A stretch of DNA of 64,000 nt from positions 62,001 through 126,000 of the forward strand of contig JAGHST010000016.1 in the NCBI GenBank assembly GCA_018065695.1, read 5' to 3'. This document shows positions 11,071 through 44,287 of this stretch, one piece after another (position 1 is the stretch's first letter; the number at the start of each line of letters is the position of its first letter). The DNA comes from Candidatus Cacconaster caballi. Lineage in GTDB: Bacteria > Bacteroidota > Bacteroidia > Bacteroidales > UBA932. Position numbers and translations under genes: made by a program. The notes beneath the pieces are model-generated. The model was given only the letters and a program-made list of their open reading frames with translations, searched no databases and was not told the origin of the DNA.

Positions 11071-11664
11071 ATGAAAAAGATTTTATCTATCATTCCTGCC
11101 ATAGTGACAGCTGCATTCTTGACAATTTCTTGCGGGAAGGCCGATCCAACCCCGACCCCAACCCCGACTCCGACTCCGACTCCGACAACGGAAGACTGCA
11201 CATATCACGTTGACTTCTCAATCAGCATCACTCAAGATATGCAGAAATTGTTTGACTTTACCGGAAGCAAATTTATTTGCGGAAGCACAGAAACCGACTT
11301 CGGAGATCTGCTTTCCTTCTCGTCAGGTTTTTCTGCATTGAATGTCAATGGTGATGCTCCTTGCAACACTTCCTACAAACTGTTTCTTATACCTAAGAAA
11401 GATTTTGAGCCTGTATCAGGAAAAACATATGACGTGATAACTGAAATTTCATATAAGATTACCACAGTCAGCAAGACCTCAGGAAAAACTGTTTCATCTG
11501 TTATCAAGCCTGATGGAATTTCCATCAAGGGCGTAGACTTCAGTGAAGCGAAAGAAAAGGGATACAGTGTCGAAAAAGTTCTTAACACGCTCAAGAATAG
11601 CGCAGAATCCAGCCTTTCTTTCTCTATTTCAAAAGACGGCTCCATCCAGCAGCTTTTTCAGTGA
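11071..11664 (+). CDS. Hypothetical lipoprotein with Pro-Thr repeat linker
   Basis: 197 aa; lipobox AFLTISCG followed by (PT)n. Confidence 0.75.
   Translation: MKKILSIIPAIVTAAFLTISCGKADPTPTPTPTPTPTPTTEDCTYHVDFSISITQDMQKLFDFTGSKFICGSTETDFGDLLSFSSGFSALNVNGDAPCNTSYKLFLIPKKDFEPVSGKTYDVITEISYKITTVSKTSGKTVSSVIKPDGISIKGVDFSEAKEKGYSVEKVLNTLKNSAESSLSFSISKDGSIQQLFQ
11154..11187 (+). repeat. Short tandem repeat (CCRACY)n encoding Pro-Thr
   Basis: ccgaccccaaccccgactccgactccgactccgac. Confidence 0.8.
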
Positions 11665-12258: not shown

Positions 12259-13380
12259 TCAGTTCCTTTCAACCTGCGGACCGTATATCGTCCACCATTC
12301 ATCCCTCATCGATACGGGAATCCATCCGTTCTGCTCGCATTCAGCCTTGCATTTGGCCGCTTTCTCCGGATTGCCGAGTTCCCGCACCGTATCGTCACAC
12401 AGCAGGCAGAAAGAGATGTGGGGATATTTATTGTCCCTGTTGGTGTAGTGAAACATAGGATAATCGCCACTTGAGTTTCCCCAGGACAGGATTGGCTTCT
12501 GCCCAAGTTCACGTCTCATCTTTATTATCTTGTTGATGGCGGTGCTCAGCTGCATGAAATCTCCTCTCCGAACCTCCTCGCCCGGTGTGTACACATAGTC
12601 TTCCGAACTTACCATCTCAATCCATTCAGGCTGATTTTCAAGGACATAATTCACATCGGACGCTATCATATGATATTTGGGGATGTCATAGATACCATCA
12701 GCGATGACCCTGCATACATCCCGATCTACTCCGGAACAAAGGAAGACGACGAAATCATTGGCCACCAGGTAGGATACAACCTCGATCATAGGCCAGTACA
12801 ATGCAGCGCCCCATTTCAGATTTGAAAGTCCCGTAACGTTTTCACTATTGATGAAATTGCTGACGTATTCCGAGAACTGCACGTCGGTCATTCCGCGAAA
12901 CCCGATGGCTTGCAACTCCTGTTGCTTCAAGCCCCATTCCTTCTTGTTCTTCCTGTTGGCAAGCACATATTCCTCGACTTCTGCCGCCCACTGCCTGTCT
13001 TCTTCCGGTGGGATAAAAGTGCTGTCGTGCAGATAACGGTGGAAGAACAGCATCCAGTTGAAATAGTAAGGAGCTGTCTCACATAACAAAGTACCGTCAA
13101 CGTCGAACGTTGCCACCCTGTCCTGCGGAGGCACGTAACCTTTGCAGTTCGGGTCGGTGACCGTGGCCACAAATGACTTCAACTCCTTCAACGCAGGGGA
13201 ATCCTGATTCCAGTACTGGAAGCGCCCGTCCTTCCCGACCCGAATCTGAGAGAGGAATTCACGTGTAACTTCTCCTTGGGGAACTATCGGACCATCAGGT
13301 TTGAGATTATCCTTCTGGCAGGAAACGCTGCCGGAGAGTATCGCTGTAATAGTCAGGAGGATTAGGGTGATTCGCTTCAT
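12259..13380 (-). CDS. HAD-superfamily hydrolase, predicted lipoprotein
   Basis: 373 aa; lipobox LSGSVSCQ; DVDGTLLCE motif I; CSGVDRDVCRVI. Confidence 0.85.
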   Translation of the reverse strand: MKRITLILLTITAILSGSVSCQKDNLKPDGPIVPQGEVTREFLSQIRVGKDGRFQYWNQDSPALKELKSFVATVTDPNCKGYVPPQDRVATFDVDGTLLCETAPYYFNWMLFFHRYLHDSTFIPPEEDRQWAAEVEEYVLANRKNKKEWGLKQQELQAIGFRGMTDVQFSEYVSNFINSENVTGLSNLKWGAALYWPMIEVVSYLVANDFVVFLCSGVDRDVCRVIADGIYDIPKYHMIASDVNYVLENQPEWIEMVSSEDYVYTPGEEVRRGDFMQLSTAINKIIKMRRELGQKPILSWGNSSGDYPMFHYTNRDNKYPHISFCLLCDDTVRELGNPEKAAKCKAECEQNGWIPVSMRDEWWTIYGPQVERN

Positions 13381-13483: not shown

Positions 13484-13545
13484 GGGGTCAAAATAAAATA
13501 ATTTTCAGGGGTCAATGCTATTTTGGCCGGGAGGAAAGATACTGT
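13484..13545. mobile_element. Possible solo end of an IS21-type element (repeated GGGGTCAA)
   Basis: Two GGGGTCAA copies 24 bp apart (13484, 13508); no istA/istB nearby. Confidence 0.25.
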
Positions 13546-13560
13546 TTCTCAGGACTTCGC

Positions 13561-13816
13561 GCTTCGCGGTGAGACTTCATCCAAGGCGGGAGAAGTTCCG
13601 CTTCCGGACGCATTTCCCCGGAAGGGGCTTGCCTGCGGCCGGAGTGGAATCTTCTCCGCCTTGCAGCTTCGCGGTGAGACTTCATTCAAGGCGGGAGAAG
13701 TTCCGCTTCCGGACGCATTTCCCCGGAAGGGGCTTGCCTGCGGCCGAAGTGGAATCTTCTCCGCCTTGCAGCTTCGCGGTGAGACTTCCTTCAAGGTGGG
13801 AGAAGTTCCGCTTCCG
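13561..13816. repeat. Tandem array (about 2.4 copies, 105-bp period) of a palindromic repeat
   Basis: Units start with GCTTCGCGGTGAGAC at 13561, 13666 and 13771; units 1 and 2 differ at 2 positions; each full unit holds arms AAGGCGGGAGAAG...CTTCTCCGCCTT. Confidence 0.95.
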
Positions 13817-13827
13817 TTGCTCAGAAA

Positions 13828-14466
13828 TTACCACATTTCGTAGTGGATTCTCTCGGGCTTCCATTTGTCTTTCGGCTGGTTTTCACCGTCAGGATAGCCC
13901 ACTGCCACAAGTGAATAAGGAACCACATTGAGAGGAAGCCCAAGAGCGGAGCGTACCGGCTCCATCCTATCAAGATAAGGATAGCAGGCTGTCCATACGG
14001 CACCAAGTCCCATAGATTCAGCCGCGAGCAGGAAATTTTCCGTGCAAGCGCCCATATCATCCCGCCAGATCGAGTTTGGCAAAGTGACAGGAGTCCTGTC
14101 CTCCCCTTCTTTCGGAGTCCATTTGAATGTTGTGTCTGCACAGATGGCCACAACTGCCGCAGCGGATTTGAAAATCTTCAAATTGAAGTTGCCTTCGAAA
14201 ATCTTGTCATAGTTGCTCTTATCCGTCACAATCACGAAACTCCAGGGCTGAACGTTCATACCTGTAGGCGCTGCCATGGCGGCCTTTAACATAGCTTCCA
14301 TCTTTTCCTGAGGAATCGGCTGATCTTTGAAAGAGCGTACACTCTTGCGGTTCATTATATTTCTGATTGAAGGGTTGTTGACACCCTTGTCACTTCCACC
14401 GCAGGAGCTGATGCAAAGGGCGGACGCCACGATGGCCAAAGCCAGAAACATTCTTTTCATATCCAT
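13828..14466 (-). CDS. Nitroreductase-family protein with lipoprotein signal
   Basis: 212 aa; ALCISSCGG lipobox; NRKSVRSFKDQPIPQEKMEAMLKAAMAAPTGMNVQPWSFVIV. Confidence 0.88.
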   Translation of the reverse strand: MDMKRMFLALAIVASALCISSCGGSDKGVNNPSIRNIMNRKSVRSFKDQPIPQEKMEAMLKAAMAAPTGMNVQPWSFVIVTDKSNYDKIFEGNFNLKIFKSAAAVVAICADTTFKWTPKEGEDRTPVTLPNSIWRDDMGACTENFLLAAESMGLGAVWTACYPYLDRMEPVRSALGLPLNVVPYSLVAVGYPDGENQPKDKWKPERIHYEMW

Positions 14467-39602: not shown

Positions 39603-42348
39603 CCTGCAGAACATCGACCTCGACATCCCTTTGGGAAAGTTTGTCGTCATAACGGGCATATCGGGAAGCGGCAAGAGTTCCCTTGCGTTCAACACTCTGT
39701 TCGCCGAAGGCCAGCGCCGTTTCGCGGAGAGTATGTCGGCCTTTGCCAGGCAGTTTCTGGGACGTATGAGCAAGCCGGACGTGGACATGATTTCGGGAAT
39801 ACCGCCGGCAATCGCAATCGAGCAGAAGGTCAACACGAAGAATCCACGCTCCACTGTCGGCACCGGCACTGAGATATACGACCACCTGAGACTTCTGTTC
39901 GCCCGCATCGGCAGGACCTATTCCCCCGTATCAGGCCTTCAGGTCAGATGCGACACAGCAAAGAGCGTAGTCGAATGGATAGCCTCTCTCAAGAAGGATT
40001 CCGTGGCTCTCATTGCCTCGCAGATGGACTGGACATCGGACAACGCCGTCGAAAAAATGCTGGAACTCAAGCAGGAAGGCTTCATCCGCCTCTGCACCCG
40101 CAGCGGTAAAGTATTGCGAATCGAGCAGGTGCTTGAAAACTTGGAGCACTTCGATCCTTCGCAGTATCTCCTGCTGGTGGACCGCATCACGGCCGGTTCG
40201 GATGAAGACACCTTGAGCCGTGCTCTGGATTCCGTTCAAACGGCCTTCAGCAAGGGTGGCGGCTATATCCACATCATTGCAGACGGAGATTTGCACAGTT
40301 TTTCCAACGTCTTTGAGGCCGACGGAATCAGGTTTGAAGAGCCTTCCGAATATCTTTTCAGTTACAACAGTCCGGTGGGAGCCTGTCCTGTCTGCGGAGG
40401 TTACGGCAAAATCATCGGCATAGACGAGGAACTCGTCATTCCGGACCCCACACTGAGCATATATGAAGGAGCGGTAGCCTGCTGGAGAGGTGAAGTAATG
40501 GGACAACTAAAGGATATGCTTGTGGAAAATGCCGGAAAGTACGGCTTCCCCATCCACAAACCGTATATGGAACTGTCAGCGCAGCAGAAGGCGGTTCTGT
40601 GGGACGGATGCGGAGATTTTCCGGGCATCAACCGGTTCTTCAAATGGGTAGAGTCACAGCGCTACAAGATTCAATACCGATATATGCTGAGCCGCTACAG
40701 CGGCAAGACCGTCTGCCGTGAATGCGGAGGGTCACGCCTTCGCAAGGAAGCCCTGTACGTCAAGGTCGGAGGCCGCACCATACACGAACTTATGACTATG
40801 CCAATAGGTCAGCTGTCCGAATTCTTCGATAATCTGCAGCTGGATGAATATGACGGCAAAGTCGCAGAACGGCCTCTTCGCGAGATACGTTCAAGGCTCA
40901 AGTACATAAACGACGTAGGCCTCTCCTACCTCACTCTTTCACGTCCTTCCAATACTCTGAGCGGCGGAGAAAGCCAGCGCATCAATCTGGTGAGTTCACT
41001 GGGCAACAACCTGACCGGTTCGATGTATATCCTCGACGAGCCGAGCATAGGCCTTCACGAACGCGATACCGAACGCCTCATACGGGTGCTGAAGCGGCTG
41101 CGTGACCTTGGCAACACCGTGATTGTAGTCGAACATGACGAGAATATCATCAGAGCCGCTGATGAAATCATCGACATAGGTCCGGGAGCCGGTGTAAACG
41201 GCGGGCACATTGTCTTTCAGGGAAAATTGACCGGCAAGGAGGCTTCCTCCGCAAAAGATTCGCTGACAGTAGATTATATGAAAGGCAAGCGTACCATTGC
41301 GCTTCCGTCAGTACGCCGCTCGTGGAAATACTCCGTAGAAATTGTCGGAGCCTGCGAAAACAACTTGAAAAACATAAACGTAAAGTTTCCGCTCAGATGC
41401 CTTACGGTAGTGACCGGTGTCAGCGGAAGCGGCAAAAGTTCTCTGGTGGGCGATATCCTCTACCCCGCACTCTACCGTCAAATCAATCAAATCGGTTCAA
41501 AGCCGGGACTCTTCAAGGAACTTCGCGGCGACCTTTCAAAGATTTCCTCCGTAGAATACATAGACCAGAATCCTATCGGAAAGAGTTCACGCTCCAATCC
41601 GGTCACATATCTGAAGATATATGACGACATCCGCAAACTGTTTGCAGATCAGCCGTATGCAAAGATGAACGGCTACGGCCACTCCCATTTCTCCTTCAAC
41701 ATAGACGGCGGGCGCTGCCCCGAGTGTCAGGGCGAAGGAATAATCCGCATTCCGATGCAGTTTATGGCCGACGTCGAAATGGTATGCGAATCCTGCGGCG
41801 GCAAACGGTTCCAGAGTGACATTCTTGAAGTAAAATATCAGGGAAAGGATATAAATGACGTTCTGAATATGAGCGTTGCGCAGGCAATGGAATTCTTCAG
41901 GGCTCAGACCGGAGATTCACAGGCTCAAAAGATAGCGGACAAACTCCAGCCTTTGGTGGACGTAGGCCTGTCCTATGTCAGTCTCGGTCAGAGCAGCAGC
42001 ACTCTCTCCGGAGGAGAAAGCCAGCGCATCAAACTCGCATCCTTCCTCGGCAGGGAAAGCGATGCTGACGGCAGCATCCTCTTCATCTTCGACGAGCCGA
42101 CTACCGGCCTGCATTTCTTCGATATCGAGAAGTTGCTGGGCGCATTCGACTCCCTCCTCGCCAGAGGCCATTCAATCATAGTGGTGGAGCACGATCCTTA
42201 TGTCATAAAGGCGGCTGACTGGGTCATTGACCTTGGTCCTGACGCAGGCGATCGGGGCGGCAGCGTAGTTTTCGAAGGAAATCCCGAAGAACTTCTCAGG
42301 AGCGGCACCGCCACAGCGCTAGCATTGAGCAGTCCTTCGCTCCCATAG
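39559..42348 (+). CDS. uvrA: Excinuclease ABC subunit A
   Basis: [44 protein letters not shown]; two ABC domains with [22 protein letters not shown]; zinc-finger cysteines; start refined from 39409. Confidence 0.97.
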
Positions 42349-44199: not shown

Positions 44200-44287
44200 T
44201 TCCAAGGCGGGAGAAGTTCCGCTTCAGGACGCATTTCCCCGAAAGGGGCTTGCCTGCGGCCGAAGTGGAATCTTCTCCCGCCTTGCG
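44200..44287. repeat. Solo copy of the palindromic repeat found at 13561-13816
   Basis: TTCCAAGGCGGGAGAAGTTCCGCTTCAGGACGCATTTCCCCGAAAGGGGCTTGCCTGCGGCCGAAGTGGAATCTTCTCCCGCCTTG, near-identical to units at 13.6 kb. Confidence 0.95.

Follow-up and report, generated by a model that had tools for sequence, protein, structure and literature searches.

The palindromic tandem array at positions 13561-13816 of the window (viz. the whole stretch of 64,000 nucleotides that was analysed) is best explained, with a somewhat better than even chance, as a local tandem amplification of a hairpin, here called A, which is a module of a REP/BIME-like family of non-autonomous palindromes dispersed by a Y1 transposase. 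If this is correct, then A and its associated palindromes D, E and F would form hairpins when single-stranded, e.g. on the lagging strand, and these hairpins would be cut and pasted in trans by a RAYT-like Y1/HUH transposase such as the one encoded in this genome; the tandem copies of A would arise afterwards by unequal recombination or slippage between linkers of about 25 nt. As far as the layout shows, the arrangement works like a REP/BIME mosaic with local tandem amplification, and its membership in this class is putative. The Y1-REP reading is strained by four observations, viz. that A and D are lacking at the genome's own Y1 genes, that few Y1 genes elsewhere have D beside them, that D occurs in G217, a genome of another family in which no Y1 was found, and that A has no GTAG foot.

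The tandem array and its neighbourhood

A single array was identified by TRF at 13561-13816 (period 105, 2.4 copies, 97% matches, score 484), in accordance with the sequence-only reading, which had described a 105-bp palindromic tandem repeat of 2.4 copies at this location. The two full copies, 13561-13665 and 13666-13770, are 98% identical, and the partial third copy (13771-13816) shows 93% identity over 46 nt. The features referred to in this work are as follows.

12259-13380, minus strand: flanking gene for a HAD-like phosphatase lipoprotein of 373 aa (weak PF00702 match, E 0.0093, below cut-off)
13528-13568, plus strand: truncated left half of D, CGGGAGGAAAGATACTGTTTCTCAGGACTTCGCGCTTCGCG (match to complete D elements of the same genome; inspection)
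13561-13816, plus strand: tandem array with a period of 105 bp, 2.4 copies (TRF, repeat search)
13583-13662, plus strand: A hairpin, copy 1 (fold z -4.7; alignment of 24 copies)
13663-13687, plus strand: linker between copies 1 and 2, GCAGCTTCGCGGTGAGACTTCATTC (related linkers in the arrays on contigs C23, C11 and C46)
13688-13767, plus strand: A hairpin, copy 2 (repeat comparison; 24-copy alignment)
13768-13792, plus strand: linker between copies 2 and 3 (repeat comparison)
13793-13816, plus strand: A hairpin, copy 3, consisting of the left arm alone, 11 bp short of the neighbouring gene (TRF, repeats)
13828-14466, minus strand: flanking gene for a nitroreductase family protein (PF00881, E 1.8e-26)
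about 44204-44284, plus strand: dispersed single copy of A, to the left of which part of a D outer stem, CCTCCCGGAACACGATTCC, remains

The array is intergenic, as had been proposed, and it lies between the HAD-like and nitroreductase-like genes, both on the minus strand. The distance between its start and the 5' end of the former is 180 bp, and that between its end (13816) and the 3' end of the latter is 11 bp. Mechanical open reading frames run through it in both senses, as was also claimed (138 and 106 aa on the plus strand, 81 aa on the minus strand). These gave no match in a Pfam search (best E 0.21), in line with the expected lack of homology to known coding sequence, and a coding origin of the array was rejected on this basis.

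Structure and distribution of the A hairpin

A is an imperfect hairpin of 80 nt (core 13583-13662), present once in each full 105-bp unit. The folding energy of the segment 13583-13665 is -49.4 kcal/mol, in comparison to -32.8 +/- 3.5 kcal/mol for dinucleotide shuffles (z = -4.7, plus strand), and on the minus strand the corresponding z is -5.6; the inference made earlier that the long arms fold into a hairpin is thus upheld, with the qualification that the pairing is imperfect. The bulges and mismatches are retained in nearly all of the aligned copies. The foot of A in these copies is mostly ATCC/TTCC-like on the plus strand and GC[CT]GC-like on the minus strand, and GTAG/GTGG was found at the foot in none of them.

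The host genome searched is a draft of 1.38 Mb in 53 contigs, which is 81% complete. After removal of duplicates and alignment, it contains 24 distinct copies of A, so that the genome-wide count suggested earlier does extend beyond the copies in the array. A or D modules are found within about 300 bp of 19 of the 106 contig ends, where 0.6 would be expected; the repeat therefore breaks the assembly, the figure of 24 is a minimum and the true number of A copies is higher. In practice, A/D mosaics disrupt genome assemblies. The copies seen are mostly intergenic and they occur on either strand, between genes of several relative orientations, divergent pairs included. On contig C51 (L011:303-1646), an open reading frame of 447 codons reads through a copy of A at its 3' end, and this copy may supply the C-terminus.

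Blastn searches for A in 60 relatives found it in none of them (a 29-bp match with an E value of 9e-4 was left out), and diverged forms of A may exist in related species. A search with the exact A-core pattern across GTDB genomes gave one match, in Rhodovulum, which is probably a chance occurrence unrelated to A, and none was found in the phage, plasmid and IMG/VR sources searched. The presence of the repeat in relatives, the lack of which the sequence-only reading had counted as part of a refutation, is thus not seen for A (0/60), but its partner D, described below, is found genus-wide.

Mosaics of A with other palindromes

At many intergenic loci A is joined to the other palindromes in different combinations, and several of these mosaic loci contain tandem arrays. 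The modules are as follows.

D module: 126 nt in this genome, outer stem CGGGAGGAAAGATACTG/CAGTATCTTTCCTCCCG
E module: TTCATCCGTCTG..GGATGAA
F module: CCGGCCACG..CGTGGCCGG

D adjoins A in both orientations, and the modules, as judged by inspection, have the hexamer CGGGAG in common near their ends, with several junctions occurring there. In the window, the left half of D (13528-13568) is joined to the array at the common GCTTCGCG. The units bearing a tandem linker, in the arrays on contigs C38 (the contig of the window), C23, C11 and C46, have a right arm that is one base shorter, with CTCCGCC in place of CTCCCGCC. The final units of the C23 and C11 arrays have another form, and the short form is also present in two single A units. 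The sharing of the short arm by the linker-bearing units, together with another form in the last units, indicates that the arrays share descent, and the sequences are compatible either with a single origin of the tandem form followed by its spread or with homogenisation. The E palindrome (L088:818, L098:329) is common to another species of the genus (G030), with which the neighbourhood of L088, beside E itself, is also shared; in G030 no Y1 gene and only one D were found.

D is a structured element found across the genus

A blastn search with a composite query matched 14 of the 40 genomes of the genus, and outside this genome the matches were mostly to the D core. With a covariance model, D was detected in 31 of the 40 genomes, in up to 42 copies each. 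Among 198 genomes of the order, it was found only in this genome, in G165 (same family) and in G217 (another family, 11 copies), so that its distribution across the order is patchy. The D loci examined in relatives are L113-L142 and L173-L191. These elements are present in gaps of every gene orientation and on either strand, and some copies form inverted pairs about 12 bp apart, e.g. in the genome G026 (contig C10, 59404 plus and 59558 minus).

In an alignment of 25 sequences, 19 of the 30 pairs in the stems of D show changes on both sides. The outer stem is entirely different between species and the head is conserved: the subfamilies keep S1 (CCCNN/NNGGG), S2 (four covarying pairs) and C-rich joints, and the long stem is rewritten between them with retention of its self-complementarity. 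In 33 distinct versions of the head, the two stems are compatible with an H-type pseudoknot, being fully complementary at the tested positions in 30 and 27 of the 33 versions, respectively; of the 12 distinct S2 types, 6 are complementary as against 1.3 in shuffles (maximum 5). However, a joining loop of only one base leaves little room in terms of RNA geometry, and hence the two stems may be alternatives that do not form simultaneously. It is possible, though we consider it rather unlikely, that D represents a new class of mobile palindromes in which conservation falls on the pseudoknot-compatible head and not on the ends, that it is recognised by this folded head, and that A is a species-specific hitch-hiker on it. 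The more novel part of these results is D together with the Y1 set that surrounds it. A genus of uncultured Bacteroidales carries palindrome families for which no published description was found, and one of them, D, has a conserved structure, extends across the genus and has no entry in Rfam.

Y1/HUH transposases in the genome and the genus

A search with PF01797 detected Y1 transposases in 29 of the 40 genus genomes and none in this genome. A profile built from divergent members of the genus identified a full-length Y1 of 307 aa on contig C44 (E 6.7e-107, with the HUH motif NHLHF) and a second at the start of contig C28, cut by the contig end. The negative result with PF01797 was therefore a failure of sensitivity, and the RAYT/Y1-like gene for which a check elsewhere in the genome had been suggested does exist. 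The C44 protein has no match in Pfam. Its profile shows weak matches in the PDB to IS200/IS605-type transposases (best ISDra2, E 0.012), and its AlphaFold2 model (pLDDT 89.6) has its best Foldseek matches in transposases of the IS200 type and in 4er8, the RAYT-REP complex from E. coli, with a probability of 1.00 and E-values of only about 0.01 since just about 110-150 residues are aligned. The protein is thus a divergent Y1 transposase that is RAYT-like in its predicted fold. After the truncated gene on C28 (L239:1-821) comes a tandem repeat of 51 bp, CCCCCGAAACGGTCAGCAATGACAAAATCGGGGG, which is palindromic.

Many genes for Y1 transposase-like proteins of about 290-350 aa are present in the genus (L143-L172, L204-L238). 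Matching repeats, mostly palindromes, lie on both sides of the gene at 21 of 30 genus Y1 loci, versus 8 of 870 cross pairs; the location of a Y1 gene between matching palindromes is the arrangement referred to as a REPtron (PMC6006769). These large, divergent Y1 transposases, most of them encoded between their own palindromes, provide a natural series for understanding the choice of hairpins by domesticated Y1 enzymes.

Of the 33 genus genomes with a Y1 gene, 30 contain D, as does 1 of the 7 without (Fisher p 1.4e-4), and across the 40 genomes the number of D copies is correlated with the number of Y1 genes (Spearman 0.64), both values being uncorrected for phylogeny. This correlation concerns D and not A. 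Neither A nor D was found beside the host Y1 genes on C44 and C28, where other palindromes are present (for the C28 gene, which is cut by the contig end, this covers the downstream side). In relatives, D was close to Y1 at only four scanned loci, one of them weak, and D as the cognate repeat of the genus Y1 genes was rejected for most loci. In G217, which is 99% complete, no Y1 was found. Because A and D flank neither of the host Y1 genes, we infer Y1 as the mobiliser from the company that these repeats keep and from the correlation, and not from anatomy. A comparison of G033 and G004 for an empty site showed rearranged flanks without a clean insertion, and no clean empty site for A or D was obtained.

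Other explanations for the repeats

If the outer stem of D, CGGGAGGAAAGATACTG...CAGTATCTTTCCTCCCG, is a terminal inverted repeat, then D and A could be passengers of a MITE-type element moved by a DDE transposase. The near-perfect inverted ends of about 20 bp around D in this genome, the fact that D can lie either way round with respect to A, and the presence of one arm alone on some A copies are all in keeping with this. However, other species change the outer stem and conserve the head, which is the reverse of what is seen in MITEs, the 26 end matches include none that encloses an autonomous element of gene size, and no target duplication was seen; we regard this explanation as unlikely. The repeats could also be passive, with short homologies serving for their spread by recombination or template switching alone and no transposase involved, as the truncated patchwork junctions at the short common stretches CGGGAG and GCTTCGCG, and the persistence of D in G217, might suggest. 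That one species should have 24 copies of A in unrelated flanks when none was found in its relatives implies a rate which is high for such a process, and the number of D copies follows that of Y1, which makes a purely passive origin quite improbable.

The strong folding of A, and in D the covariation and the pseudoknot-compatible head, would also be expected if A and/or D were transcribed hairpins, e.g. 3' UTR stabilisers, terminators or small RNAs. However, A and D occur on either strand and in gaps of all three kinds (convergent, same-direction, divergent), a terminator search gave no match, no Rfam family was matched by A or D at the gathering score, and the counts of G.T versus A.C mismatches, being inconsistent between alignments, point to no consistent transcribed strand. 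A role as structured RNA is therefore decidedly doubtful. Lastly, the draft is fragmented, with many of the copies at the ends of contigs, and the copy number of the array could have been collapsed in the assembly. It is nonetheless highly improbable that the array is an assembly artefact, as it has unique flanks and lies in the interior of a contig of 126 kb, there are differences between its two full units, and the arrangement of about 105 bp recurs on other contigs.

Comparison with known palindromic elements

The preferred reading, viz. amplification of a Y1-dispersed palindrome, draws on the REP/BIME/REPIN elements and their RAYT (TnpAREP) transposases, which are likewise intergenic palindromes in many copies that form mosaics and clusters, undergo tandem amplification, conserve the bulges of their imperfect stems and share the genome with a Y1/HUH protein (PMC8266576, PMC3733652, PMC6006769). 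As in BIMEs, A, D, E and F form mosaic clusters, with tandem arrays at several loci. The REP/BIME-style assignment of the sequence-only reading thus holds in that the repeats are palindromic, dispersed, intergenic, mosaic and tandem in a genome with Y1. It is not supported as regards canonical REPs, which are defined by a GTAG-type foot (PMC6006769, PMC8266576): A lacks a GT[AG]G or CGTC foot, and A (80 nt) and D (about 120-145 nt) are longer than REPs (about 20-65 nt). REPs have a high copy number; of A, 24 copies were seen in this 81%-complete draft. Unlike in REPtrons, A and D are away from the host Y1 genes, and D differs further in its conserved pseudoknot-compatible head and variable stem.

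Subclass 2.6 of TnpAY1 (RAYT group 5) comprises proteins of 179 aa from Bacteroidetes with 'atypical secondary structures' (PMC6006769). The Y1 proteins described here resemble it in their NH[LIV]H motif, their occurrence in Bacteroidetes and the non-canonical palindromes flanking their genes, but they are of about 290-350 aa and have YxNRN or YVQMN in place of YIH[QN]NP in the tyrosine region; this comparison is one of size, motifs and context. The CGTC-tagged palindromes are dispersed in Bacteroidetes among other phyla with no tie to a transposase gene (PMC3733652), whereas A and D lack the CGTC tag and are much longer. MITEs and the enterobacterial RU elements (PMC2759123) are similar in being of 100-170 bp, intergenic and with inverted ends, and D differs from them in that its ends vary and its head is conserved, with no autonomous parent or target duplication seen.

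Other repeats in the window

A small open reading frame (11071-11664) for a lipoprotein-like product contains a run of Pro and Thr codons, which is encoded by a short tandem repeat of 6/12 bp at 11141-11186. A 35-nt near-repeat is also present at 40954-40988 and 42001-42035 (spacing 1047 bp), and the two copies probably correspond to a pair of ABC signature motifs within a single gene, which may be UvrA-like.
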